Below the pieces are notes generated by a model. That model had not been told where the DNA came from. It did no database searches and worked only from the letters and a program-made list of their open reading frames with translations. From the NCBI GenBank assembly GCA_026004435.1, contig BPJD01000003.1, positions 1 to 64,000 of the forward strand: a stretch of DNA of 64,000 nucleotides, in the 5' to 3' direction. This document shows positions 2-30,998 of this stretch, piece by piece (the stretch's first letter is position 1; the number at the start of each line of letters is the position of its first letter). This DNA comes from Patescibacteria group bacterium (GTDB lineage: Bacteria > Patescibacteriota > Microgenomatia > UBA1406 > GWC2-37-13). The translations under genes were made by a program, and so were the position numbers.

Positions 2-535
2 AACATAGTATTAACATTTAGAATAAAATTCCAGGGTATTACCAATCCTGTTGTTACAACATTACCTGTAAATGTAACTGTAAAAAAAGCTTTCGAAACA
101 GGAGTTTCCAAGACAGTAACATTTACTTATAATCAACAGGAAAATGTGTGGATTGGGCAGTCCAGCTTTAATCTAGTGCCTTCAGATGGCTACTTTATTT
201 ATATTAAAGGACCAAAGCATTTAAGAAAGAAAATCTGCGATGAGACACCAACTGAATCAGCAGGAGCTGAAGGAACCTATGTTTGCTCTGGATCAGGGTT
301 GACTATAACTAATGACAAGGTTTATGACTTTAGTAGAATAACTTTGTTGGCTGGAGATTTAGATCCGCAAAATGGAGTAGTCAACTCATACGACTGGTCA
401 TTGGTAAGAAATAGTATAGGAACAACAGATCAAACTACAATTCAACTTGCAGATATAAATTATGATGGTAAAGTTAATGTTCAGGATTATACTTTGATTA
501 TGTACTCTTTATCAATTAAATTAGATGAGTTTTAG
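2..535 (+). CDS. Dockerin-bearing surface protein, C-terminal part (cut by left edge)
   Basis: The reading frame is open from base 2, so the start lies outside the window; the GTG at 146 is only an internal codon. About 178 residues are visible. The last 60 carry two dockerin-like calcium-binding loops: GDLDPQNGVVNSYD and, about 25 residues on, ADINYDGKVNVQD. Each has the D-x-D/N-x-x/D-G-x-V-N-x-x-D spacing and is followed by a hydrophobic helix (SLVRNSIG, TLIMYSL). The upstream part is beta-rich and not recognisable to me. Dockerins normally bind cohesins, and the next two genes on the same strand encode cohesin-like domains, with gaps of only 15 and 5 nt, so the three probably form one surface complex and one operon. 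The dockerin call is firm; the identity of the rest is unknown. Confidence 0.8.
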   Translation, partial: NIVLTFRIKFQGITNPVVTTLPVNVTVKKAFETGVSKTVTFTYNQQENVWIGQSSFNLVPSDGYFIYIKGPKHLRKKICDETPTESAGAEGTYVCSGSGLTITNDKVYDFSRITLLAGDLDPQNGVVNSYDWSLVRNSIGTTDQTTIQLADINYDGKVNVQDYTLIMYSLSIKLDEF

Positions 536-550
536 TTATAATAAATTTAT

Positions 551-1213
551 ATGGAAGAGTTTAACTCTCAGGAAACACAATCGCAGAACTCAGTTTTAAG
601 CAGAGTTCTTTTAAACACTCATCTACTTTTAGTGACAATTATTGTTACTCTATTGATCATAGGTTCTTATATTTATATAAGATGGACAAAGAATCAAGAT
701 CAAAAATATACTGAATCTGACGCTGTTTTTTTGGATGCAGGTTCTAGCTCCATAGAAACAAGATTCAGTCAGGAGGCTGAAAACTATGAGATGCTAGGTA
801 GTATTTATGTTTACACTAAAACTCCCTCAGTTAATATAAATGATACAGTTGAGGCAATGGTTGTATTAAACTCTCATAATATAGATATTACTGGGTTTGA
901 TGTTGTTGTAACTTATGATCCTAAAGTTCTTAAGTTTCTAGACATTGGCAGTTTTTTTACAAAAAGGATTGATTTAGTTTACCAAGATAATAATGGTGTT
1001 ATAACTATTTCTGCTGTTAAGAAGTTATCAGATAAAGATCAATTAATCTTTAATGATGACGATGTTTTAGTATTAAGGTTTCAGGCTCTTGAGCCTGCTG
1101 AAACAACTGTAAGTGTAGCAAAGTCTTCTGAGTTTGGTTTGACTCAGTTTGTAGATAGCCAGAATAAGGTTTTCTCCCCGAATGTTTCTGGTTTTAGTCT
1201 GAAAGTTGAATAG
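551..1213 (+). CDS. Membrane-anchored cohesin-like protein
   Basis: The protein has 220 residues. An N-terminal cytoplasmic stretch rich in Q/S/N precedes one membrane segment at about residues 23-43, so the rest should face outwards. From about residue 75 to the end there is a cohesin-like beta-sandwich signature: DTVEAMVVLNSHNIDITG, then FDVVVTYDPKVLKFLDIG, then a C-terminal strand pattern with VLVLRFQAL. It resembles the cohesin domain of the next gene (ELYITFDPSLVSIESI). The ATG at 551 has no clear Shine-Dalgarno and sits 15 nt after the dockerin gene. I infer a receptor or scaffold for the neighbouring dockerin protein; binding itself cannot be seen in sequence. Confidence 0.7.
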   Translation: MEEFNSQETQSQNSVLSRVLLNTHLLLVTIIVTLLIIGSYIYIRWTKNQDQKYTESDAVFLDAGSSSIETRFSQEAENYEMLGSIYVYTKTPSVNINDTVEAMVVLNSHNIDITGFDVVVTYDPKVLKFLDIGSFFTKRIDLVYQDNNGVITISAVKKLSDKDQLIFNDDDVLVLRFQALEPAETTVSVAKSSEFGLTQFVDSQNKVFSPNVSGFSLKVE

Positions 1214-1218
1214 GTTTA

Positions 1219-1971
1219 ATGAAAAAATTACTAATTATTCTTATTTATACAGCAATATTTTTTTTTATTTATCGAGAAGCAGTTAATGCTGCATATTTTT
1301 CACTTGAACCTTCAAGTTCAACCGTAAATAAAAATAATACAGTGACTTTGCAGTTAAATCTTAATACAGAAAGTGAAAATGTCAGAGGCGCTGAACTTTA
1401 TATTACTTTTGATCCTAGTCTTGTTTCAATTGAGTCTATAACTGCTGGGAGTTACTTTGATACAGTTGAGCATATAATTGATTCAAATGAAGCCTATATT
1501 ACTGCATTTATGGAGAATGTAGATTATGTGACCGGTACAGGAACAATAGCCAGCATAACTTTTAAAGGTGTATCAGCTGGTACTGCAACAATTAACTTTG
1601 ACTGTAATAGATCTGGAATTTATAGGGATGATGTTAATTCTACAAATATATTAGTGTGTTCTTCCAATCAAACTGCACAACTTCAGATTCAGGAATCTTC
1701 AGGCTCATCTGGAAGCAGCGGATCTAGTGGTTCTTCAGGAGGCTCCTCGTCTGGTGGTTCTTCAGGGAGCTCGTCTGGTAGTTCTTCGGAAAGTTCAAAT
1801 CAAAGTTCATCTTCAGATTCATCCTCATCTTCTTCAACAGACAATTCATCCAGTAAAGAATTAACTGAACTGCCAAAATCAGGTATTTTTGACAACACCT
1901 TAGGTTATATTTATTCAGCTATTGTTGTAACTGGATTAGGAGTTGTTCTGCGATTAGTTTTATTTAAATAA
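1219..1971 (+). CDS. Cohesin-domain surface protein with Ser/Gly stalk and LPKSG-type C-terminal anchor
   Basis: The protein has 250 residues. A signal peptide is likely at 1-24 (hydrophobic core, cleavage after VNA). A cohesin-like domain spans about 26-155: PSSSTVNKNNTVTLQLNL, ELYITFDPSLVSIESI, GTIASITFKGVSAGTATINFD. A low-complexity Ser/Gly stalk runs from about 159 to 212. The C-terminus has LPKSG at 218-222, a hydrophobic segment at about 229-248 and a final Lys. That order (LPxSG, membrane span, basic end) is the layout of a sortase sorting signal, though the pentapeptide is non-canonical and no sortase lies in the window. The gene starts 5 nt after the previous one and ends 3 nt before the convergent uvrA stop. 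Confidence 0.75.
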   Translation: MKKLLIILIYTAIFFFIYREAVNAAYFSLEPSSSTVNKNNTVTLQLNLNTESENVRGAELYITFDPSLVSIESITAGSYFDTVEHIIDSNEAYITAFMENVDYVTGTGTIASITFKGVSAGTATINFDCNRSGIYRDDVNSTNILVCSSNQTAQLQIQESSGSSGSSGSSGSSGGSSSGGSSGSSSGSSSESSNQSSSSDSSSSSSTDNSSSKELTELPKSGIFDNTLGYIYSAIVVTGLGVVLRLVLFK

Positions 1972-7684: not shown

Positions 7685-9679
7685 TCATTCTCCCAAGCTC
7701 CTTTTGATTTTTTTTACTAAATTTATGACTTTAAATTTATCTTTATTATTGCTGATATTACTGGGATCTTGTTGTTTTCTATGAATTGCTATACACAAGA
7801 GATGTGTTGGTCTTGAAAAAGCTACATGGGCGATTTTAAGAGCTTGCTTTCGTATTTTACCATTATTGCTATTATTTTTCCCTAATAACAACTCATAAAT
7901 AAAATAAGATATACTATTATGGTAATACTTGGTCTCCAAATACAATGTAGCTGTATGTGTTTCTCCTTTTATCCCATGCACAGTATCTATTGGAATTTTT
8001 ATTTCATTATTGTTAATTGTTGTAGCAAAAATATTTTCAAAAGAATTATTTGTATTTGTGTGTACATTCTTCAAACATTGTTCAGTTAAATAGTTTATTG
8101 AACTATTATTTAATTTTGTATTAAAAAGTCTCTCAAGTATTTTCTTGACTTCTTTTGAAAAGTCTTTAAAATTATCTTCGTAAGAATATTTACAAATCCT
8201 TTCCATTAATTGATTAAATAAGTTTGGGTCTTTTTCTTTAATGAATTCTAAAAATTTTGTTTTTGAAAATTTTTTACCACTATCCGAATTTATATTCGAA
8301 AGATATAATGCTTCTAAAATACATGAGATAGTACGATTCTTAAATTCCTTAGTAATTAATTTTTTTGATAATTGATACATTGTATAAAGATTAGGGAAAT
8401 GTTGTCTTCTGATATTAGTTACTTGCTTGTCAAAATCAGGGAAATAGGATTTGATAGATAATCCTTTATCCTTTTCTTTACCAACCCATCCAACTGCTTT
8501 TATGGGGTTTCCTGTAATTTGGGAAATTTCAAATAATGATTTATTCTCACCATTATAACAACAGGTTGTATTAACTATTATTTCTGCAAACTTGTTAAGA
8601 ACTTGGGTTTTAGAACTATCATCAAAAACAATAAATATTGGTTTTAAATTAACATTTTGATTACCGTTTAATTCCTTATATGGATGTAGAGCTATACCTT
8701 TGATAAGATTTGCAATGGGTTGAGAAATTCTGTGTGAATTTTTAAACTCCATCTTAATATATCTATCATTTGCTTCAGGGCTCCAGGCAGATTTGCTAAA
8801 ATTATCATTCATTATTCCCTGATTAACATCACCAATCCATTGGATTATCACATTTTCATTAAAGCATTTTTCTATAATCTCCTTTTGTATACTGGAAGTA
8901 TCCTGAGCTTCATCTATAAAAACGAATTTGAAACGAGATGAAAAAATATTTTTTAATTCAGAGAATTTCTCTAAGTAATAATTTGCAAAATCGTATGCAT
9001 CGTCGAAAGACAGAATTCCATCATATAAAACCTTTTCCTTAAGTTTTATTGCTGCATGTAATATTTGTTGTTTTTCTTCATCTGACCAATCATTTTTAGC
9101 TCTTGGTCTTTTAATTTCAATTTTTTCTTTTATATTCGAACGAACTATTAGTAAATTTTCATTTTCTCTAACTATCGTATAGTTACCAAATATATCATTT
9201 GAGTAATTAAAACTTTTCAAATTTTTTAAAGTCTGTTGATTTATACCTTTTAAAAAATATGTTTTTTGCATTCTCTCTTTTTGATATGCTGTATCAATAA
9301 AATTCGGTCTATATCCAAAATACTTTATGTAAGCCGGGATAGCCAGATATTTGTCAACAAAGGATTGTATTGTTCCGAAAAAGTTGGGATAACTAAGCAA
9401 TCTATTTGCTTTTTCGCCTAATTTATCTTTAACAATATCAATAGCAACATTAGTATGAGTTAATACACAGATCCCACGATTATTTTCAAAGGGCATTTTT
9501 TCAGAGAGGATAAATAATTTTGCAAGCAATGTGGTAGTTTTTCCACTACCCGGACAAGCTTGCAGGTGTAAAGACTTATCAATATACTTTATGAAGTTTT
9601 TTCTTTCCTCATCAAATGTTTGACCTTCTCTTAAAAAAATTTTCTCAGCTTTTGCTATGTCTTTGTTTGTTATTTCCAT
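7685..9679 (-). CDS. gajB: UvrD/Rep-family superfamily 1 helicase, GajB-like (Gabija)
   Basis: The protein has 664 residues; GajB proteins are usually near 500. Superfamily 1 motifs are in order: Walker A ACPGSGKTTT at about 41-50, motif Ia with LTHTNVAI, Walker B FVFIDEAQDTSS at about 252-263, motif III with QWIGDVNQGI, motif V TVHGIKGETHT at about 566-576, motif VI HVAFSRPTHLLCI at about 618. Its ATG lies 35 nt inside the end of the GajA-like gene, so translation is coupled. Pairing of a class 2 OLD nuclease with a UvrD helicase defines Gabija, in which GajA cuts phage DNA and GajB contributes to the complex; this is known of the family. The call as Gabija is inference from motifs and pairing. 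The 3' end is odd: see the A8 run and the 7408-7665 frame. Confidence 0.85.
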   Translation of the reverse strand: MEITNKDIAKAEKIFLREGQTFDEERKNFIKYIDKSLHLQACPGSGKTTTLLAKLFILSEKMPFENNRGICVLTHTNVAIDIVKDKLGEKANRLLSYPNFFGTIQSFVDKYLAIPAYIKYFGYRPNFIDTAYQKERMQKTYFLKGINQQTLKNLKSFNYSNDIFGNYTIVRENENLLIVRSNIKEKIEIKRPRAKNDWSDEEKQQILHAAIKLKEKVLYDGILSFDDAYDFANYYLEKFSELKNIFSSRFKFVFIDEAQDTSSIQKEIIEKCFNENVIIQWIGDVNQGIMNDNFSKSAWSPEANDRYIKMEFKNSHRISQPIANLIKGIALHPYKELNGNQNVNLKPIFIVFDDSSKTQVLNKFAEIIVNTTCCYNGENKSLFEISQITGNPIKAVGWVGKEKDKGLSIKSYFPDFDKQVTNIRRQHFPNLYTMYQLSKKLITKEFKNRTISCILEALYLSNINSDSGKKFSKTKFLEFIKEKDPNLFNQLMERICKYSYEDNFKDFSKEVKKILERLFNTKLNNSSINYLTEQCLKNVHTNTNNSFENIFATTINNNEIKIPIDTVHGIKGETHTATLYLETKYYHNSISYFIYELLLGKNNSNNGKIRKQALKIAHVAFSRPTHLLCIAIHRKQQDPSNISNNKDKFKVINLVKKIKRSLGE

Positions 9680-11561
9680 ACTTTACCATTGGTTCAGTTA
9701 CATGCTCAATTGCTTCAACCAGGTATTTAATCCCATTATTAGAATCATAATCATTTTTTATCATTTTTCTTATTAAAGCCTTATCCTGTTCTTTTAGCAA
9801 TTTAACAAGCCATTGCGCAGTAACGGTTTTTGATGCCTGTCCATTTTCTAGAGGCTCATAAACCTTTTTCGCTCTTAATTTTTTGTCTTCTGGGAAAGAA
9901 TTTTGAATATTTAATTTTTGAATTTCTTCCTCGCTTATCCAATCGTTTTTTGATTTTATCTTCTTTGCAATTACTATTGCTTTATGCATAAATTTATAGA
10001 GATTGCCCATTGCAATGTCAAACTCAAGGGTTTTTAATGGTGATATAAAGGTTTTTATTTTGTTGTCATTTGAATTATATTTATTAGCTAATTTTTCTCT
10101 TTTTTGAGACAAATCTTCTTGATTTTCTATTGGATTTCCTTTATCATCAACTGGTTCATCAAGGTCGGTTACCACAGCAACTTTAATTGGTAAAGAGCTC
10201 CCATCTCTTCTTTTAAATATATTTACATATCTTAAAAGGGCTTTACTGCCAACATTTACAATAGAAACTCCATATTTATGTAAAGGTCTATTTAAAATTT
10301 CTGCCAATGCCGGGATAATTATATTTTCCGCATCCCCCTCAACAATAATTACACCCTTTGCGAAAAACAAATTAGCTTTTGTGGCATCAAGAAACCTTTC
10401 AAGAAACTGATAATCACTTTCGTTTAATGCGGTACTATCAGGAGACAAAGAATACACTTCACTATTTTCACTATTTATACAAAGCTTAATATGTTTTAAC
10501 GGAATACTTGAACCTAATAATGTGCTATGACTTGTAAATATATACTGTATTTTACTGTTATTTTCTGAAAGAAGCGATTTTAGGACGCGTAATTGAGCTT
10601 GTGGGTGAAGATGGGCTTCCATTTCTTCAATTAAAGCCAAGCGTAATCCCAAATAATTTTCTCTCCTTAAATGTATAAGTTCAGCGGCAATATACAATAA
10701 ATTCAAAGTACCAAGACCAGATTTGTTTTCTTCTAGAGTAAGTTCGAGTTTACGAAGAATGGCATTTAATTCTGTAGGTGTTATTTTAATTTCAGGCTTT
10801 CTATCATCGTTTTTCTCCAAAAATTCACTGGTTTGGTCCTGAAATTTATTTTTGATTTCATATCCCCCAAGCTCATTGCCTTCTATCTGTAAACTTTCAT
10901 TTTGAGATAGAGTATCCTTTTCAAAAAAATCTAAAACAAGCTTGCTTGCTTGTTCAAAATATTTCTCCAGTGGATGTTTTTCATTCACATCTTTTTTTTC
11001 AAATATGGGATGACTCTTTAAAATTTGATACAATCGGGAACGATACCCTGGAGATAGTTCATTTTCTGCATCTCTTAAGGGTTTTAGATAAATTACTCTT
11101 AGAAGAGCTCTTACTTCTCCATCTATGTATTGCCCTTCGTTATCAATGCCTGCTCTTAGGTTAGTAATAATCCTGTTGTTTTTGTTTATGGCTGTGAACC
11201 AAACTTTTAATTCTTTTATTATATTGTTATTATTATCGTCTCTTTTTATATCGATCCATTCTAAAAATTGGCCACCTTCAGCATCAGACAAGCCAGTAAG
11301 AACACATTCTATTTTCAATTCCTGAGCTCTTTCTTTTGTTTGTGGGTTCTGATAAAAGTCCTCAACCTCAATTCTGATTGGATCATATGTTTGGGTGCCA
11401 AGACAATATCGTATGGCATCTATAATAGCTGTTTTACCTGAATCATTTGCTCCAATTATAAGATTCAGGTTCGGATCAAATTCAATTTCGAGTCCCGGCT
11501 CATTATTTTCTTTTGACCCAATTGATCTGAAATTCCAAATTTTTAGTTTTTTTAAGTACAT
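9645..11561 (-). CDS. gajA: OLD-family ATPase-TOPRIM endonuclease, GajA-like (Gabija)
   Basis: The protein has 638 residues (the family is usually 550-650). The N-terminal ATPase has Walker A IIGANDSGKTAI at about 36-46, an SGLGTLNLLYIA signature region at about 281 and Walker B LALIEEMEAHLHP at about 308-320, followed by IFTSHSTLL. The C-terminal TOPRIM domain has the acidic motif VIIVEGDAEN at about 404-413 and VAVVTDLDEP at about 461-470, the metal-binding residues of OLD nucleases. In Gabija, GajA is a sequence-specific nicking endonuclease controlled by nucleotides. It starts 2 nt after the methyltransferase stop and its end overlaps gajB by 35 nt, making one continuous operon with the two upstream genes. 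Confidence 0.88.
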   Translation of the reverse strand: MYLKKLKIWNFRSIGSKENNEPGLEIEFDPNLNLIIGANDSGKTAIIDAIRYCLGTQTYDPIRIEVEDFYQNPQTKERAQELKIECVLTGLSDAEGGQFLEWIDIKRDDNNNNIIKELKVWFTAINKNNRIITNLRAGIDNEGQYIDGEVRALLRVIYLKPLRDAENELSPGYRSRLYQILKSHPIFEKKDVNEKHPLEKYFEQASKLVLDFFEKDTLSQNESLQIEGNELGGYEIKNKFQDQTSEFLEKNDDRKPEIKITPTELNAILRKLELTLEENKSGLGTLNLLYIAAELIHLRRENYLGLRLALIEEMEAHLHPQAQLRVLKSLLSENNSKIQYIFTSHSTLLGSSIPLKHIKLCINSENSEVYSLSPDSTALNESDYQFLERFLDATKANLFFAKGVIIVEGDAENIIIPALAEILNRPLHKYGVSIVNVGSKALLRYVNIFKRRDGSSLPIKVAVVTDLDEPVDDKGNPIENQEDLSQKREKLANKYNSNDNKIKTFISPLKTLEFDIAMGNLYKFMHKAIVIAKKIKSKNDWISEEEIQKLNIQNSFPEDKKLRAKKVYEPLENGQASKTVTAQWLVKLLKEQDKALIRKMIKNDYDSNNGIKYLVEAIEHVTEPMVKYGNNKQRHSKS

Positions 11562-11563
11562 AA

Positions 11564-14500
11564 TTATTCCTTAGTTATAATTTTAATCTCATCTTCTGTT
11601 AAATCATAAAGTTTATACACCAACCTATCTATCTCCCGCTCCCATGGGCTCGTATCGGCGTTTTTATTTTGTCTCTTTGCCGCAAGGATTTTATCCACTA
11701 GCACCTCGATTTGTCGAACAACAGGTTCGTTGGTGGGGGTGATGGGGGGAAAAGGAATTTCTCTTACAGATTCTTTAGTTAATGACATTCCTTTTTCACC
11801 CAAATTTGAGCATTTAATCCTGATATACCATTGAGAAAGATTTGAATTAAGGAAACCATTAATAATTTTTGGATTATCTGTAATAATCATAAAGCAAGTT
11901 TTCTGCAAATACATTCCTTTAGGTGCAATAACAGTATTTAATGCTTGGTCGGTTTCCGCCCACACCACCTTATCCTTCTCAAATTCGAGGTAGTAGGCAA
12001 TTTGGTCTTGTGTTTCAAACCATTTATTGCCAGTTTTTTTGCGAGCATTGAAACCTAGTTCAGGGTATCTTTTTCCGGATTGTTCTAATTGTCGTATATC
12101 AAAGTGGTCAAGAAAATATTTTTTCAATGCAGGATAATCATCAATGTTCAAGTGTAAAGCGGGAAAAATTCCAATCACCCACAACCCAGCCCACTCGTAG
12201 TAATATCTCTTTATATCTTTACCACGCAATATAGGTTTGATTATGGCTTCGGTGCGTTTTCTTTCATCCTCATCTTTGCAGTTTGCCAGTATCTCATTGC
12301 GCTTTTCTGTTGTAATGATAAAAGCCTCGTTGAGTCCGGTTTTAATTCCGTAATAGATATTTACATTCCACTCTTTAAGTGGTTTTCCTATGCGCTCAAT
12401 TTTTTCTTTTAGCTGTTGCTCCGCTTTGCTGCCTATAAACCAGGCATCTTTGGTGAGTTTGGTGAGTGTTACGGCATTTTGTTTCAAATATTCTGCAATA
12501 TTGATGTTGTCTTTTTGGTTTTCGCTGATGGTGGTGGCTAAAAGTTTGTTTTGGTTGGTAGCTTTTTGTATGAGTAAAATGTTTGTATCAACTGTTGCGC
12601 TTTCAAACACATTTGGGCCTAAATTTACCAGCACAAGCGGGTTTTGCTTGCTAAAAAATTCACGCAGCTTTTCTCCATAACCAGCTCGCATCCATTTGTT
12701 AGATGAGATATAACAAAGTATTCCATTTTCTTTTAACAGCTTTATTCCTTTTTCATAAAAAAGGCAGTATACATCACCTTTTCGGTTATAAGTTTTATAT
12801 TCTTTATCTTTATAAAGATTTGCTAACTCTCCCCTATTTTTTTGAAGTTGAACATAAGGCGGGTTGCCAATTACAATGTCGAAACCATCACTTACTCCAA
12901 ACATCCACTCAGGATCAAACCAATCTGCAGTAGCTGTTTGGTCAAAAACATCGAATTCTACTAACTTCTCTGCTTCTTTTGTTTTCCATTCTTTTCTAAT
13001 AAGAAGTTTCTTTAACTCTTCTTTTATTTTTTGAGCTTTCCTTTTTAATCTAAGTTTTTCTTGGCGATTTTTAATACTAAAATGGCTTTTATAAAGCAAC
13101 TTTAATTCGTTTTTAAGTTTTGTTATTTCTTCATTTTCAAAAATACTTTTTCCATCAAGCTCAAGTATTGAAGCATTGGGTTTATCTATACTTAATTTAT
13201 CTATACTTATAAGAGTGTTTGCTGAAACAAATTTTGTTTCAAGATGAGGTAGTGGCCTTATGCCAAAGTTTTCTCGCTTTTCATCGACTTTTTGATCAAT
13301 AAGTAGGGAGAGAAAAAAACGCAGTTTGCAAATCTGAATAGCTATGGGTTGAATGTCAACTCCATAAATTGAGTTTTCAATAAGATAAAGCTTTCTGGCA
13401 TAATCAGGGTAATTGATGCTATCATCAAAATTATTGTTTACTTCTTTTAACTGTCTTTCTCTTTCTTCCTTATCCTTTATTTTTAAAATATCTTCTATTT
13501 CTTTTAGTGCTCTTTTGTATTGTCTTTCCCTCCAAAGCTGATTTGTAGGGTCTATTTTGCCTAAAATATAAACAAGTTTTTGCAAAATTCCCATTGGAAA
13601 AGCTCCGGAACCTACTGCTGGGTCAATTACTTTTAACTCATCTATTGCTTTTACAATTGAATTTATTTCTTCTTCATCAAAATCTAATACTTCATCGTTA
13701 TAAGATAATAAACGCTTTAACTTATCATCTTCAATGCTTGTTTTTGTTTTAAAGTAGTAAAACAAGGATTCGTCAACCATAAACTCAACTATTTCTTTAG
13801 GCGTGTAGTAAGAACCCGTTGCTTTGCGAGCAGTAGTTTGCGTCTCTGGGTTATACGCGGCTAAAAGATTTTCAAATATATTACCTAATAGCTCTGGGTC
13901 AAGCGAAACCTCAACATCAATAGGACTACTTTCATCAGCTGTAAAACTGTAATTTTTTAAAATATTTATTAGTCCTCTAACCTTTTTTTGTTTTTTTTTG
14001 CCGTAAAAATGGGATAAATCTTCCTCTCTTTCTTGTGAAAAAAACAAATAATCAGGCAGTTTTGCTCTTCGTTTATTTTCTCTACTAAAACCATCTATGT
14101 ATTTAGAATCATCATCTAAACACTCAAATAACCCTCCATTTATAAAAGGAGTGTTTTTAAAGATATCTATAAAATCTTTTCTTGAAATTAGAAGTTTATC
14201 TTGATAGCGATAAAGCGTTTTTACGCCAAATTCTTTTCTATGTTTTAAATATTTATCTTTTGATTTACTTAACTCTGCAAATTTTCTGTCCTTAAACTCT
14301 CTATTTAAGGTTGCAAAAAATAAGTTCTGGAGAATACTATTGTAATAGTAATCTTTTTTTTCAAAATCTTTTACTACACTTTTCAAAAATTCTTTTTCAA
14401 AAATTTCTTTTGGTATTAAGCCTTTTTCTTTTAAAAACCACACGAAAATCAAGCGAGTTATAAGTCTTATCAAGTTTTCCTCAATTCTCCCACCGGGAAA

Positions 14501-15070
14501 CCAGCTTTCTTTCAGAGCCCAAGCATACCAATCCTGAATTTTTGTATAAAATTCTTTTGTTAATGGCTCAATAGAAAAAGCTTTTATTATAGAGTCTAAG
14601 TCGTGAAATTCAGCTTCTACTAAGGCTTTTAAAAATGTTCTGTAGGGTTTATCTTTTGCAACATAATAGGTATGTCTTTTAAACATACTCCATTTTCTTC
14701 TCTTTCCTTTTGGTATTTGGTAAACAAGAGAAAATCTAAAATTGCCCTCTTTATCATAGAAAATAAATATTCCTGCATGAAATCTTTCTAAGTCTATAGT
14801 TTTAAGAACCTTTTTTGCAAAATCATATTGTACCTTTTTGCTTGAACGCTCGGTTATATTACCTTTTGTTTTTATGCCTAAAAATACTAGTTCAAGTTTG
14901 TCTGTGGTTATCTCACCAATTTTTTTTGCTTCTTCAAAGCGGGTAGAGTCATCAATGAAATAACTGACATCTTCAAAATACGGTTTAAAATCATAGTTTT
15001 TATTAGAAAAAAAGTTTTGAAATTTTTCTAAAGAAAAATCTTTGATTATTTCTTCTAATAATTCTTTCAT
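11564..15070 (-). CDS. Eco57I-like N6-adenine DNA methyltransferase (type IIG / BREX-DISARM-like)
   Basis: The protein has 1168 residues. The methyltransferase core has GSYYTPKEIVEFM (motif X region) at about 419-431, the SAM-binding motif I VIDPAVGSGAFPMGI at about 481-495 and catalytic motif IV DIVIGNPPYVQLQ at about 731-743, typical of gamma-class N6-adenine enzymes. The C-terminal third contains IYYGIKTGLNEAFIIT and resembles the target-recognition part of type IIG enzymes. The first 400 residues have no PD-(D/E)xK nuclease that I can identify. It overlaps the upstream helicase gene by 4 nt (ATGA), so the pair is translationally coupled. It probably marks host DNA so that the PLD-helicase, Gabija or both spare it; this is inference. 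Confidence 0.88.
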   Translation of the reverse strand: MKELLEEIIKDFSLEKFQNFFSNKNYDFKPYFEDVSYFIDDSTRFEEAKKIGEITTDKLELVFLGIKTKGNITERSSKKVQYDFAKKVLKTIDLERFHAGIFIFYDKEGNFRFSLVYQIPKGKRRKWSMFKRHTYYVAKDKPYRTFLKALVEAEFHDLDSIIKAFSIEPLTKEFYTKIQDWYAWALKESWFPGGRIEENLIRLITRLIFVWFLKEKGLIPKEIFEKEFLKSVVKDFEKKDYYYNSILQNLFFATLNREFKDRKFAELSKSKDKYLKHRKEFGVKTLYRYQDKLLISRKDFIDIFKNTPFINGGLFECLDDDSKYIDGFSRENKRRAKLPDYLFFSQEREEDLSHFYGKKKQKKVRGLINILKNYSFTADESSPIDVEVSLDPELLGNIFENLLAAYNPETQTTARKATGSYYTPKEIVEFMVDESLFYYFKTKTSIEDDKLKRLLSYNDEVLDFDEEEINSIVKAIDELKVIDPAVGSGAFPMGILQKLVYILGKIDPTNQLWRERQYKRALKEIEDILKIKDKEERERQLKEVNNNFDDSINYPDYARKLYLIENSIYGVDIQPIAIQICKLRFFLSLLIDQKVDEKRENFGIRPLPHLETKFVSANTLISIDKLSIDKPNASILELDGKSIFENEEITKLKNELKLLYKSHFSIKNRQEKLRLKRKAQKIKEELKKLLIRKEWKTKEAEKLVEFDVFDQTATADWFDPEWMFGVSDGFDIVIGNPPYVQLQKNRGELANLYKDKEYKTYNRKGDVYCLFYEKGIKLLKENGILCYISSNKWMRAGYGEKLREFFSKQNPLVLVNLGPNVFESATVDTNILLIQKATNQNKLLATTISENQKDNINIAEYLKQNAVTLTKLTKDAWFIGSKAEQQLKEKIERIGKPLKEWNVNIYYGIKTGLNEAFIITTEKRNEILANCKDEDERKRTEAIIKPILRGKDIKRYYYEWAGLWVIGIFPALHLNIDDYPALKKYFLDHFDIRQLEQSGKRYPELGFNARKKTGNKWFETQDQIAYYLEFEKDKVVWAETDQALNTVIAPKGMYLQKTCFMIITDNPKIINGFLNSNLSQWYIRIKCSNLGEKGMSLTKESVREIPFPPITPTNEPVVRQIEVLVDKILAAKRQNKNADTSPWEREIDRLVYKLYDLTEDEIKIITKE

Positions 15071-18000
15071 TGCTTTTTGCTTTCAATTGCCACTATTACC
15101 TCTTTTTTGAGTTTTTTTATCTGTTTTTTTTCTTTATCTAAATAATTTATTCCTCCTAATCTTTCTGCCATCTCATAAAGATCTTTTTTTAATTTTAGAG
15201 GCTTATTTTCTGGAAGGTTAGCAATTGTTCTTAATGTTTTTTTTGGTAAAGCTCCGTACGAGACTATATCTTCTCTCAGCGTTCTTATAAACTTAAACAA
15301 ATCAATATCATTTATTAAACTGTTTCTTAAAATGGTATCAATTTTAGTAATAGCCTGTCTTTCAATGCTTAATTCAGAAGGAGCAATTTCATAGATTCTT
15401 TTGCTTTTAAGAGCCTTTTCGTAAGCTTGCCAAAAAATATCTGTATCCCATTTTAAAGATTTTTCATTAGGCTGGCATTTTATTTTTTCTAAAACTTCTT
15501 CTAATGTTGTATCTTCAACTTCAACATTATTTTCATAATCAACTCTTCTAACATAGACTTGACGATTTTTACTAATAAAAACAAGAAGTTCGTTTTTATC
15601 TCCTTTTTTAGCAACTTTAACTCTTGGGGGGATATTTTCCAAATCGTTTACTAAATTTGGATATTTTTGTCTTATGCTTTTATAAATATTTAAAACTTTT
15701 GTATAAAAAGTCTCCTCTTCTAACTTTTCAGGATTTTGCATCAACCTTGAGTATAGCTTTGCAGGTCTTGGTTCTTCATCTGGTTCAAAAATTTTTGAAT
15801 CCTCTCCTAAAGTATTGTGAATTAAAAACATTTTTTGTGAAGCAATTTCCCTAGATTTTATTATATTTGCGCCTTTTTCTGTTGGAAAGAAATTAACAAT
15901 AAATAGCTCTTCAAATAGTTTTTTGTTAATTCTGTTAATTCTTCCTAATCGCTGAATTACTCTAACAGGATTCCACGGAATATCATAATTTATTATCATT
16001 CCAGCTCTGTTTAGATTAAACCCTTCTGATAATTTGTCGGATGTTAGCAAAATGTCATAATTATCTTTTTGTTCTTTATAAGAAGCATCAAAATTTTCTA
16101 AAATTTTACTAAGTAATTTTTTGTTTAAATCTTCCTCTACTACTAAAACTCTCTTAAAATGATTTTTTAGCTGATTTTTTAAGTATTTTACAGTATCCAA
16201 ATATTCAGAAAATATTACTACTTTTCGTTTGGATTCATTAATTTTTGGCTCTTTGCTTAAAACTTTATTAAGTTTTTTACAAAGTTCTTCTGTTTTTGGA
16301 TCGTTTTCAACAAGCTTTAATTCTTCTAATTGTTTTAGTATTTGTGAAAATAAATTTAAATCATCTTGTATATGTTTTAAAAATAAATCTTTCTGTTTAA
16401 AATCTTTAATTTTGTAAACTTTATCGTGTTTTGGTCTTTTTTTCTCTAATAATTTTTCTTTATATTTCTCAATTTCTTCTTCTACTTCTTCTGCATCCAT
16501 TTCAGTTAATCTTGACACAAGCTTTCTATCTAAAATAAATATCTGGTTTTTGCTTATAAACTCCAAGGCTGCTTTGGTAACATTTTGAAAGTTAATAATG
16601 CTTTGTTTGAAAGCACCGAATGAGCTTTCAAATCTTTTTACTAAAAGTCGTCGCATAAAATCATATAAGTTTTTTTGCTGGAGAAAAGCCCTGTTTTCTT
16701 TTTCTTTTAATTGGCCTTCTTCTATTTCTTTACCATATAATCCAGCCTCATAAACAAATGGTCTGTAAATAGCTCCTTTAAATAATCCTCCATCTTCAGG
16801 ATCAATAAAATATTTTCCTATAACTTGATCATAAAATTCAGATTGCTTTTTTGTTAAAGTAAAAAACCACTCTTCCGGATCTTTTACCCTAGAAATGCTT
16901 TTAATTTCATCCTTATATTTAGGGTTTTTTAAAAGATCTAAACGGTTCCTCCTAATTGTTATTGGTTCTACAACAGAACGAATCTGACTAGAAATATATC
17001 TTCCTCTGCTTTTGATTTTTTTAATAAAATCATTATTAAACTTTGATATTTTCTCTCCAGTAAGTTTTTCATAATAAAATAAGGCTTTTTTATATTTATT
17101 GGACTCTGGTTTATTTTTATAATGTTTTAAAATAAAATTGATTCTGTTAAACTGTCCTTGAAAGTAGGAAAATCTATTTGCCAGGTTTTCATCTAAAGTA
17201 ATATAAGATTTTTTTGGTGATGAAAACAATTTTATAAGAGACAAAATATCTGAGGGTTTATTATTAAAAGGAGTTGCGGTAAGAAGAATCACTTTTTTAC
17301 CTCGACAAATATTTTTTAAATATTCATATCCTTGAGTGTCTTCATTTCTAAATCGATGTGCCTCGTCTATTATGACAACTTCTACTTCTGGTCTTCTTTT
17401 TATTTCTTTTTCTAGTTTATCTAGTTCTCCCGAAGACCAAACATCCCAATCATACAATTTAAATTGTCTTTTATACATATTCCAACCACCTTTATCAGTA
17501 TCTTTACTATCGCCTTTTAGGCCGGGCGGACAGATAATTATACCTAGCTTGCCTAACTCTTTTGCAATAGAGCAAGCCATAATAGTTTTTCCAAGCCCAA
17601 CAACATCTGCTAAAATAACACCGTTATTGTTCTCGATTATTGAAAGAGCTTGTTTAATAGCATCTATTTGATAAGCATAATCTTTATATCCGTTTTCCTG
17701 CAAAATTTTATAAAGATTATTACTAATATTTTTTTGTTTATAAGAATTTAAATAACTCTTTAACAGCAAAACATAGGCTTGAAATGGTGTAATTTTTTTT
17801 ATAAAACTCTCCTCTTCAATTATTGTCAGGAGTTGTTTTTTTATTTCATCATTTTCTGTAATCTGAATGGAATCTTGCCATAAATTATCAAAATAATCTT
17901 CTATTTTCTCAACATATATATCTGGCAATTCAACATTTAACTCTTGTTGTCCTAAAAGACCTGCTTTAGTTAAATTACTACTACCCATAATAGCAACACT

Positions 18001-18441
18001 TTTAAAAGGCTGGTTGTTTTTTATTTTAAAAATATAAGCTTTTGCATGATTTATGTCTTTTGTTTTTCTAATAATTAGTTTATTTTTTTTAATTAAGTCA
18101 ACAAAAAAGTTAACTTGCCGATATATTTCCTTTTTGTCTAATTCTTGTGAGTTTAAACTAAATTTAATAGAAGTTAAATATTCTTGTATTTTTTCATTTA
18201 TTGATTTACCTAAATCTTCTGAAACTATTTCAATTAAACCTCTGTTGGTTTTATCTATATTTAAACCTACCAATATCTTTATATCTATCTCTTTATTTTT
18301 TTTTAAAGCTTCATATACAGGTTGTAAACCAGAAAAATAAAAAAATGCAGTTAAAACTTTAAGCTCTTTGCTTATTTTAATGAGTTCAGAAAGTCGTTCG
18401 TTTAAAGTTTTAGTAGGCTCATTTGTGATAAATGTTGACAT
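15067..18441 (-). CDS. PLD-nuclease / SNF2-type helicase fusion, first gene of defence operon
   Basis: The protein has 1124 residues. The N-terminal domain is phospholipase D-like with a single HKD-type site: NHAKAYIFK at about 131-139 and GSSNLTKAG at about 153-161. One site per chain implies an active site made by dimerisation, as in the BfiI-type nuclease. The helicase follows: Walker A VVGLGKTIMAC at about 280-290, VVIIDEAHRFRN at about 355-366, LLTATPFNN, and a C-terminal RecA lobe with SEGFNLNRAGMII and RVIQRLGRINR. Known relatives pair with Eco57I-type methyltransferases in restriction-like systems and resemble the SNF2 and PLD parts of DISARM. Here the partner methyltransferase overlaps by 4 nt. 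Translocation-coupled cleavage is the likely role, by inference. Confidence 0.88.
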   Translation of the reverse strand: MSTFITNEPTKTLNERLSELIKISKELKVLTAFFYFSGLQPVYEALKKNKEIDIKILVGLNIDKTNRGLIEIVSEDLGKSINEKIQEYLTSIKFSLNSQELDKKEIYRQVNFFVDLIKKNKLIIRKTKDINHAKAYIFKIKNNQPFKSVAIMGSSNLTKAGLLGQQELNVELPDIYVEKIEDYFDNLWQDSIQITENDEIKKQLLTIIEEESFIKKITPFQAYVLLLKSYLNSYKQKNISNNLYKILQENGYKDYAYQIDAIKQALSIIENNNGVILADVVGLGKTIMACSIAKELGKLGIIICPPGLKGDSKDTDKGGWNMYKRQFKLYDWDVWSSGELDKLEKEIKRRPEVEVVIIDEAHRFRNEDTQGYEYLKNICRGKKVILLTATPFNNKPSDILSLIKLFSSPKKSYITLDENLANRFSYFQGQFNRINFILKHYKNKPESNKYKKALFYYEKLTGEKISKFNNDFIKKIKSRGRYISSQIRSVVEPITIRRNRLDLLKNPKYKDEIKSISRVKDPEEWFFTLTKKQSEFYDQVIGKYFIDPEDGGLFKGAIYRPFVYEAGLYGKEIEEGQLKEKENRAFLQQKNLYDFMRRLLVKRFESSFGAFKQSIINFQNVTKAALEFISKNQIFILDRKLVSRLTEMDAEEVEEEIEKYKEKLLEKKRPKHDKVYKIKDFKQKDLFLKHIQDDLNLFSQILKQLEELKLVENDPKTEELCKKLNKVLSKEPKINESKRKVVIFSEYLDTVKYLKNQLKNHFKRVLVVEEDLNKKLLSKILENFDASYKEQKDNYDILLTSDKLSEGFNLNRAGMIINYDIPWNPVRVIQRLGRINRINKKLFEELFIVNFFPTEKGANIIKSREIASQKMFLIHNTLGEDSKIFEPDEEPRPAKLYSRLMQNPEKLEEETFYTKVLNIYKSIRQKYPNLVNDLENIPPRVKVAKKGDKNELLVFISKNRQVYVRRVDYENNVEVEDTTLEEVLEKIKCQPNEKSLKWDTDIFWQAYEKALKSKRIYEIAPSELSIERQAITKIDTILRNSLINDIDLFKFIRTLREDIVSYGALPKKTLRTIANLPENKPLKLKKDLYEMAERLGGINYLDKEKKQIKKLKKEVIVAIESKKQ

Positions 18442-29226: not shown

Positions 29227-30105
29227 TCAAAATTTTCTGCGAAGATAAAGCAGATAGGCTCTGGCAAATCTTAACGCTGAAAAAAATGCAAATAATACTC
29301 CTCTCCAACCGTCTAAAATACCTTTGTGCCTTATAAGCAAAGACAAAAAAGTCTGGATAGGTAAAAATAACAGATACTTAACTGCTGTAACTAAGTTAAT
29401 TGATGTGTTACTCTCATTCAGCTGATTTGCCAAAAAATGCACATACCTGTTGTTTCTGGCTATATATCTGCTAAAGGTTGGTGAGTCGTAATGCAGTATT
29501 GGGTTTATTAGCCAACCGATTTTGCCTTTGACTTCTATAACCTCATGAACATCTTTACAAGGAAAATATGCCTTGCCTTTGAGTATTAGTCTGATTGGCG
29601 CATCTGGGTACAAGCCTCCATACTTCATAAATTTGCCTAAAAAATTATTCAGTCTGGGAATAAAAAAACCTGCATAGGTTTCGTATTTTGAGGTTTTACC
29701 TTTCATCTGGGACAGTATTAATGTTTCATGCCTTTTAAATAATTTTTTTAGTTTGTCTGGAATGCTTTTTTGATACTGCTCTATTTGCTTGTTGTTCATT
29801 TTGGTTATTTTAAGAATCTCATTTTTTAATTCTTTGCTTACCTCTTCATCTGCGTCAAGCTGTAAGATCCAGCTGGAAGAACAGTTGTCAAGAGCCAGTT
29901 GTTTATTAATGTGAAAATTAGCAGGATTAGAACCTGCTTTAATTATTTTGACTTTTTTACCGTAACTTTCAGCTAATTTTACTGTGTTGTCTGTTGAGCC
30001 TCCATCTACTATAACAACTTCATCTGCCCAGTCTATAACAGAATTAAGACTATAATGAAGGTTTTTTTCTTCATTGTAAACAGCCAAAGCAACTGAGACT
30101 GACAT
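29227..30105 (-). CDS. Family 2 glycosyltransferase
   Basis: The protein has 292 residues from ATG 30105 (MSVSVALAVYNEEKNLHYSL). The open frame continues 71 codons upstream, but that part is antisense to def and not real. The GT-A fold is shown by VVIVDGGSTDNTV and the DxD-containing LQLDADEEVS. The C-terminal half has a hydrophobic, basic segment (YLLFLPIQTFLSLLIRHKG) that should sit at the membrane, as in WaaE/KdtX-type enzymes. The donor and acceptor are unknown. A TATAAT 7 nt before the ATG suggests leaderless expression. A relative is at 59712-60473. Confidence 0.88.
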   Translation of the reverse strand: MSVSVALAVYNEEKNLHYSLNSVIDWADEVVIVDGGSTDNTVKLAESYGKKVKIIKAGSNPANFHINKQLALDNCSSSWILQLDADEEVSKELKNEILKITKMNNKQIEQYQKSIPDKLKKLFKRHETLILSQMKGKTSKYETYAGFFIPRLNNFLGKFMKYGGLYPDAPIRLILKGKAYFPCKDVHEVIEVKGKIGWLINPILHYDSPTFSRYIARNNRYVHFLANQLNESNTSINLVTAVKYLLFLPIQTFLSLLIRHKGILDGWRGVLFAFFSALRFARAYLLYLRRKF

Positions 30106-30112
30106 AGTCTTT

Positions 30113-30118
30113 ATTATA
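30113..30118 (-). promoter_or_regulatory. TATAAT box for the glycosyltransferase (leaderless)
   Basis: A perfect TATAAT lies 7 nt upstream of ATG 30105 on the minus strand, within the 48-nt divergent gap shared with def. Confidence 0.55.
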
Positions 30119-30139
30119 CTTGGTTTTATTATTTTTTGG

Positions 30140-30145
30140 TATACT
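30140..30145 (+). promoter_or_regulatory. TATACT box for def (leaderless)
   Basis: TATACT lies 8 nt upstream of the def ATG at 30154, back to back with the glycosyltransferase box. Confidence 0.5.
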
Positions 30146-30153
30146 TTAGGATT

Positions 30154-30690
30154 ATGCCAAAGCCGTTTAAGATACTTAAAGCGCCTGATAAAAGATTGAC
30201 TACTCCTGTAAAGCCTGTAACTAAATTTGATGCTAAATTGAAAAAAATCGCGCAAAGAATGATTGCGACCTTGGATGTTCAAACAGATCCTCCGGGTGTT
30301 GGTCTGGCTGCAAATCAAGTTGGTTTGGATCTAGCAATGTTTGTTGTAAAAAAACATAAAAACGACACGCCTTTAGTGGTTATTAACCCTCAGATTTTGG
30401 CAAAAGGTCAGCTGATAGACAATCTTGAGGACTCTGCCAGTTGCAGTTTAGAGGGTTGTTTATCAATTCCTAAAATTTGGAGCCCTGTAGACAGGTATGA
30501 CTGGGTTAAGATAAAATTTCAGGATCTTGATGGCAGGACCATAATTAAGAAATTTAAAGCACTGGACTCAGTTATTGTTCAACATGAAATAGATCATTTA
30601 AACGGCATTTTATTTACGAAACGAGTTATTGAACAAAATAAAAATTTGTATAAAGAAGTTGGAAATAAATTTGTTAAGATAGATCTTTAA
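30154..30690 (+). CDS. def: Peptide deformylase
   Basis: It removes the N-terminal formyl group from new proteins. The protein has 178 residues from ATG 30154; an upstream TTG adds six unlikely residues and overlaps the promoter. All three active-site motifs are present: GVGLAANQVG at about 48-57, EGCLSIP with metal-binding Cys 102, and QHEIDHLNG with His 144, Glu 145 and His 148. It is divergent from the glycosyltransferase and its stop lies 2 nt from the convergent rpmB stop. Confidence 0.95.
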   Translation: MPKPFKILKAPDKRLTTPVKPVTKFDAKLKKIAQRMIATLDVQTDPPGVGLAANQVGLDLAMFVVKKHKNDTPLVVINPQILAKGQLIDNLEDSASCSLEGCLSIPKIWSPVDRYDWVKIKFQDLDGRTIIKKFKALDSVIVQHEIDHLNGILFTKRVIEQNKNLYKEVGNKFVKIDL

Positions 30691-30692
30691 CT

Positions 30693-30998
30693 TTAATTTT
30701 CTGCAGATGTCTTTGAGTCAGTTTTTTTAAGTAGATTCTGTTCAATTGAGACAATGTTAATAAAAGGCTTTTTTCCTTCTTTTAAATCTTTTTTTACTCT
30801 TTTAATGCATTTTGAACAGATCTTGACTCTTTTAATTTTATTGTCATCTAGTCTTATTTTAACTGCTTGCAGGTTTACCTTAAAAATCTTTCTTGTTGCT
30901 TGAGCTCTTTTTTTCCATCTGCCGCCTGCAACACCTTTTCTGTGGGTATATGACCTGCCAAACTGTGTTGTTTTACCGCAGTGATAGCAAATTACCAT
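30693..30998 (-). CDS. rpmB: Large-subunit ribosomal protein bL28
   Basis: The protein has 101 residues. The N-terminus ICYHCGKTTQFGRSYTHRKG carries a CxxC and the typical bL28 pattern; the second CSKCIKR pair completes a zinc site. RWKKRAQATRKIFKVNLQ is the core signature. The C-terminal 15 residues after ISIEQ-like sequence are an acidic/polar tail. It lies 13 nt downstream of the end of the 31012 surface-protein gene in the reverse direction, so it is the first gene of neither obvious operon. Confidence 0.93.
   Translation of the reverse strand: MVICYHCGKTTQFGRSYTHRKGVAGGRWKKRAQATRKIFKVNLQAVKIRLDDNKIKRVKICSKCIKRVKKDLKEGKKPFINIVSIEQNLLKKTDSKTSAEN

Follow-up and report, generated by a model that had tools for sequence, protein, structure and literature searches.

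An X-dockerin and two anchored cohesins conserved in a patescibacterial family: a probable surface-display socket outside the cellulosome

Why would a very small bacterium place a dockerin gene directly in front of two cohesin-like genes? The three genes open the window analysed here, a stretch of 64,000 nucleotides that comprises bases 1-64000 of contig C3 in an assembly of 885 kb (7 contigs, 98% complete). An earlier note, made from the sequence, had read them as a cellulosome-like assembly in which the receptor-ligand logic might serve attachment rather than polysaccharide breakdown, in a probably host-dependent organism. Host dependence is probable from the kind of organism and its 0.89 Mb genome. 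The trio lies on the plus strand where the note had placed it (Table), with spacers of exactly 15 nt (dockerin stop at 535 to ATG at 551) and 5 nt (cohesin A stop at 1213 to ATG at 1219). All three genes exceed the curated Pfam cut-offs, Dockerin_1 with 33.5 bits (cut-off 22.9) and the two cohesins with 36.0 and 38.2 bits (cut-off 24.1), and at E values of 5e-8 to 2e-9 these are not chance matches. Cohesin A is 63% identical to that of the same-genus Patescibacteria group bacterium KatS3mg090. In all counts below, "family" means the GTDB family of the source organism, of which 60 genomes were surveyed.

Table. Coordinates of the X-dockerin (XDoc) gene, the two cohesin genes and their parts within the window.
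Feature	Position	Strand	Details
XDoc gene, 3' end (X module + dockerin)	2..535	+	177 aa visible; truncated by contig start
X module	2..352	+	all-beta in model; Cys79 at 236-238, Cys95 at 284-286
Dockerin (PF00404)	350..532	+	loop 1 at 356-394 (13 residues); loop 2 at 452-487 (canonical 12)
Cohesin A	551..1213	+	TM helix residues 25-43 (about 623-679); cohesin domain about 803-1210
Cohesin B	1219..1971	+	signal peptide 1219-1290; cohesin domain 1291-1692; Ser/Gly stalk about 1693-1857
LPKSG sortase-type motif of cohesin B	1870..1884	+	L, P and G invariant in 39 aligned homologues
C-terminal hydrophobic helix of cohesin B	1909..1965	+	basic tail LRLVLFK

Since the first base of the window is also the first base of contig C3, the dockerin reading frame is truncated and its 5' part is missing. 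The contig of a same-genus genome (G004) likewise begins within the XDoc gene, just past a stalk of the (PTSTPTRQ) type; it seems that repeats interrupted both assemblies at this gene. The region also differs from that of relatives, in which a peptide deformylase-like gene, a glycosyltransferase gene and a small gene lie near the trio; here they are found at 29227-30998, about 28 kb away, and the trio region has therefore been rearranged or has received an insertion. Elsewhere in the window, between uvrA and uvrB, a defence island on the minus strand combines two neighbouring genes for a GajB-like helicase and a GajA-like ATPase, probably a Gabija pair (7685-11561), with a type IIG restriction-methylation protein beside a PLD/SNF2 helicase similar to DrmD (11564-18441).

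The visible part of the first protein is an X-dockerin (XDoc) with a family-specific X module. The module occupies about 120 residues upstream of the dockerin, carries the signature KGPKHLQKKIC...P.E...Y.C (also given as KGPKHLRKKIC), is predicted to be all-beta and directly precedes the dockerin, forming an X-dockerin dyad. Its Cys79 and Cys95 are invariant in 45 of 45 homologues. A PDB profile search with the module gave no significant match, and hence no sequence homology to the solved X modules of known families. In a sample of 380 genomes from across the phylum, its profile detected only the two members of the family and, weakly, two genomes from another family of the class; distant X-module-like genes lie near a cohesin gene in another family of the class (L122:6523-8497 and L121:4275-7244). 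The dockerin itself belongs to type I, with two EF-hand-like calcium loops. Degenerate loops in homologues would, according to the earlier note, have refuted the proposed assembly, but their calcium ligands are near invariant across the 45 homologues. Here loop 1 is one residue longer than the canonical form, while in some homologues it contains larger inserts.

Both downstream genes encode cohesins (PF00963) by profile and by fold, as AlphaFold models and Foldseek comparisons confirmed. Cohesin A consists of a short N-terminal tail, a single transmembrane helix, a linker and a terminal cohesin domain, with no C-terminal anchor; in its single-chain model with XDoc (see below), its best match by TM-score is the Clostridium perfringens GH33 cohesin 2vo8 (0.85). 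Cohesin B, modelled from 39 sequences (pLDDT 81), best matches clostridial type I cohesins in the PDB, with a TM-score by target length of up to 0.82. The N-terminal anchor of cohesin A and the Ser/Gly stalk of cohesin B stand as the earlier note had described them, whereas the C-terminal helix of cohesin B is recast here as part of a predicted sortase signal. The stalk is followed by LPKSG, a hydrophobic helix and a basic tail; in 39 aligned homologues the L, P and G are invariant and LPx[S/T]G is conserved. Together with the signal peptide and two sortases encoded elsewhere in the genome, these are the sequence features of an LPxTG-type substrate, on which a sortase would presumably act. A protein-family survey found sortase to be near ubiquitous in Microgenomates (PMC6744442). 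The source genome encodes four cohesin proteins, each with a single cohesin. The two outside the trio lie on contig C5 (L065:6727-7410 and L065:14422-14991); one ends in LPKSG and a helix, the other in a PPVSG-type tail, and relatives of the latter persist in genomes that have neither the X module nor cohesin A.

Do XDoc and cohesin A pair? The stops that separate their genes are in frame, so that reading with NCBI table 6 yields a single chain. We used this as a modelling device only, with an alignment of in-frame read-through rows from other genomes that have the same in-frame stops; no claim is made that the stops are read through in the cell. The resulting model reached a pLDDT of 86.7 and a pTM of 0.77, with a disordered linker before the cohesin. 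By arithmetic on the pTM formula, freely placed domains should give about 0.45-0.6 and a fixed pair about 0.75; the score thus points, indirectly, to a confident complex of XDoc and cohesin A. AlphaFold3 has predicted known cohesin-dockerin pairs well (PMC12997984). XDoc probably binds cohesin A in vivo, and cohesin B may take XDoc as well. The receptor-ligand logic proposed for the locus holds up on several lines: the cohesin folds, the preserved calcium loops, a conserved operon, the co-occurrence described next and the confident chain model.

The search for the trio in related genomes, which the earlier note had proposed, showed that its gene order is conserved across the family. In local HMM maps, nearly every family locus examined has XDoc first, then cohesin A and then cohesin B, and cohesin A lies directly 3' of XDoc with a median gap of 16 nt (36 XDoc-containing loci examined). 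The X module and cohesin A each occur in 50 of the 60 family genomes and in 30 of 34 genera sampled, and the same ten genomes lack both, a concordance of 60/60 (p = 1.3e-11 if the genomes are independent; they are related). For six of the ten, the listed completeness is 90% or higher. Because the two genes are adjacent, the concordance can also reflect joint loss or jointly missing contigs; in one genome (G023) they lie on different contigs. Cohesins of any type are present in 58 of the 60 genomes, and other types remain in most of the ten, so it is cohesin A, not cohesins generally, that tracks XDoc. A few genomes (G011, G031 and G056) that have neither the X module nor cohesin A still keep cohesin B-like proteins, so cohesin B may have another ligand. 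Outside the family, the order dockerin, N-anchored cohesin, C-anchored cohesin recurs without the X module: further families of the class have it, as does a single genome from a different class. Cohesins were found in 88 of 362 genomes sampled across the phylum.

What the plug carries is less easily seen in the source organism. The earlier note had proposed to look in the upstream part of the dockerin gene for an enzymatic or adhesive domain; we see the X module there, and any such arm is cut off by the contig start. A reading frame of 866 aa lies at the end of contig C1. It combines an N-terminal helix and large repeats with a Pro/Thr stalk, and it carries the Cys motif C.NNRCVVRTGTPPAN.R.CS.DADC, which in G004 lies directly upstream of XDoc. 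This frame is likely the missing arm, and C1 probably joins C3. Synteny gave no confirmation of the join, and a DNA pattern search for the shared Cys motif gave no match. Pfam found no domain in the 866-aa protein, and the 14 searched genomes of other genera contained no homologue. The last 900 bases of C1, repeat-rich coding sequence (L104:3104-4000), contain several frame breaks, probably contig-end errors. In relatives the cargo is more legible. A Pfam scan of 35 XDoc proteins returned cohesins (11), M4 peptidase (2), beta-helix (2) and DUF1554 (2), and a scan of 26 other dockerin proteins returned LamG, CARDB, Hint and others (1 each); stalks are a further feature of these proteins. None of the 61 dockerin proteins in family loci matched a glycoside hydrolase or carbohydrate-binding family.

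On this cargo count we rejected the reading as a true cellulosome, in which the trio would anchor polysaccharide-degrading enzymes. The parts list does resemble one, as cellulosomes contain a cohesin, a dockerin, an X module adjoining the dockerin and a cell-surface anchoring cohesin (PMC5934362). The anchoring cohesin has its counterpart, judged by sequence, in cohesin B with its sortase-type signal and the two sortases. However, the source genome encodes a single dockerin even by sensitive profile search and has no primary scaffoldin with many tandem cohesins, and the family loci examined have at most two cohesins per protein. "Cellulosome-like" therefore overstates the case: the predicted surface anchoring is there, whereas the tandem-cohesin scaffoldin and the CAZyme cargo are absent. 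We consider a true cellulosome highly improbable here, and for the family the reading is already largely refuted.

There are two further explanations. XDoc might chiefly tether enzymes, proteases among them, that nourish the cell, with adhesion secondary, as two XDoc proteins with thermolysin-type (M4) peptidase domains would have it; one of these is encoded in G019 (L074:11211-13631, minus strand). Yet of the 35 XDoc proteins only these 2 have an M4 domain, the majority of arms consist of cohesins or have no annotation, and the proposed arm of the source organism has no recognised enzyme domain, which leaves general enzyme display an unlikely main function. Somewhat less likely still, the cohesins could be chiefly structural or ligand-binding beta-sandwiches, in an S-layer, a pilus or glycan binding, with the dockerin an incidental partner. 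The wide presence of cohesins in the family fits this, as does the retention of other cohesin proteins (the C5 locus; the "cohesin D" type) where the X module and cohesin A are missing. The tracking of the X module by cohesin A in all 60 genomes, and the confident one-chain model of cohesin A with XDoc, speak against an incidental partner.

We therefore favour, as the probable reading, a non-cellulosomal cohesin-dockerin socket for surface display whose arm most likely serves attachment. XDoc would be a secreted protein whose Pro/Thr-rich stalk bears an arm at the N-terminus and whose C-terminal X-dockerin forms the plug. The dedicated partner of this plug would be cohesin A, which its N-terminal helix anchors in the membrane; cohesin B, exported by its signal peptide and, to judge from its sorting signal, linked to the cell wall by sortase, may offer a second socket further out. 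By swapping the arm and keeping plug and sockets, the lineage could display different surface modules: a repeat adhesin here, and cohesin adaptors, thermolysin peptidases, LamG or beta-helix modules in relatives. For the arm of the source organism, the likeliest task would be attachment to a host cell or another surface. The cargo agrees with the proposal that the locus serves attachment and not polysaccharide breakdown, while the adhesion role is one that we infer.

The trio bears on how Patescibacteria, which are ultra-small and mostly uncultured, hold on to their hosts. We put forward tentatively, as a possibility that we would not yet bet on, that in a large group of ultra-small bacteria the trio serves as the chief means of attaching to the host. 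It would be a calcium-dependent plug and socket in which swappable adhesin arms sit on a fixed X-dockerin that would be captured by the membrane cohesin and then passed to the wall-linked one. A modular, conserved socket supplies named proteins, a predicted partner pair and a prediction of calcium dependence, for which recombinant proteins would be a sufficient test, and it extends the use of cohesin-dockerin modules to a whole bacterial family. A literature search turned up no description of cohesin-dockerin pairing in Patescibacteria; subscription papers lay mostly outside the search, which makes this weak evidence of absence.

Among known systems, the cohesin modules of C. perfringens GH33 and GH84 (2vo8, 2jh2) provide the best fold match of cohesin A, but they are parts of glycosidases, whereas cohesin A is membrane anchored and carries no enzyme. 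Non-cellulosomal cohesin and dockerin modules are known (Peer et al. 2009, cited in PMC9012536 and PMC10066038), including those of ANME archaea and of giant proteins in Omnitrophota, and have been proposed for cell-cell contact. They share with the trio a use outside cellulose degradation; the trio differs in its fixed three-gene operon, its family-specific X module and its sortase signal. In Southlakia epibionticum, an episymbiotic member of the Saccharibacteria and thus also of the Patescibacteria, the dockerin-domain protein SEML1_0315 is essential in Tn-seq (PMC10633639); a cohesin partner or a sortase is not mentioned in the main text of that paper.

The system that we judge closest is the CttA XDoc-ScaE (type III) pair of Ruminococcus flavefaciens, in which, as proposed here, an X-dockerin is plugged into a single cell-surface cohesin. 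ScaE is sortase-linked. The pair tethers a non-enzymatic binding protein, CttA, to the cell surface (PMC5934362). Unlike that pair, the trio has an X module with no sequence match in the PDB, and it has two neighbouring sockets, one in the membrane and one of sortase type, with no cellulosome around them.
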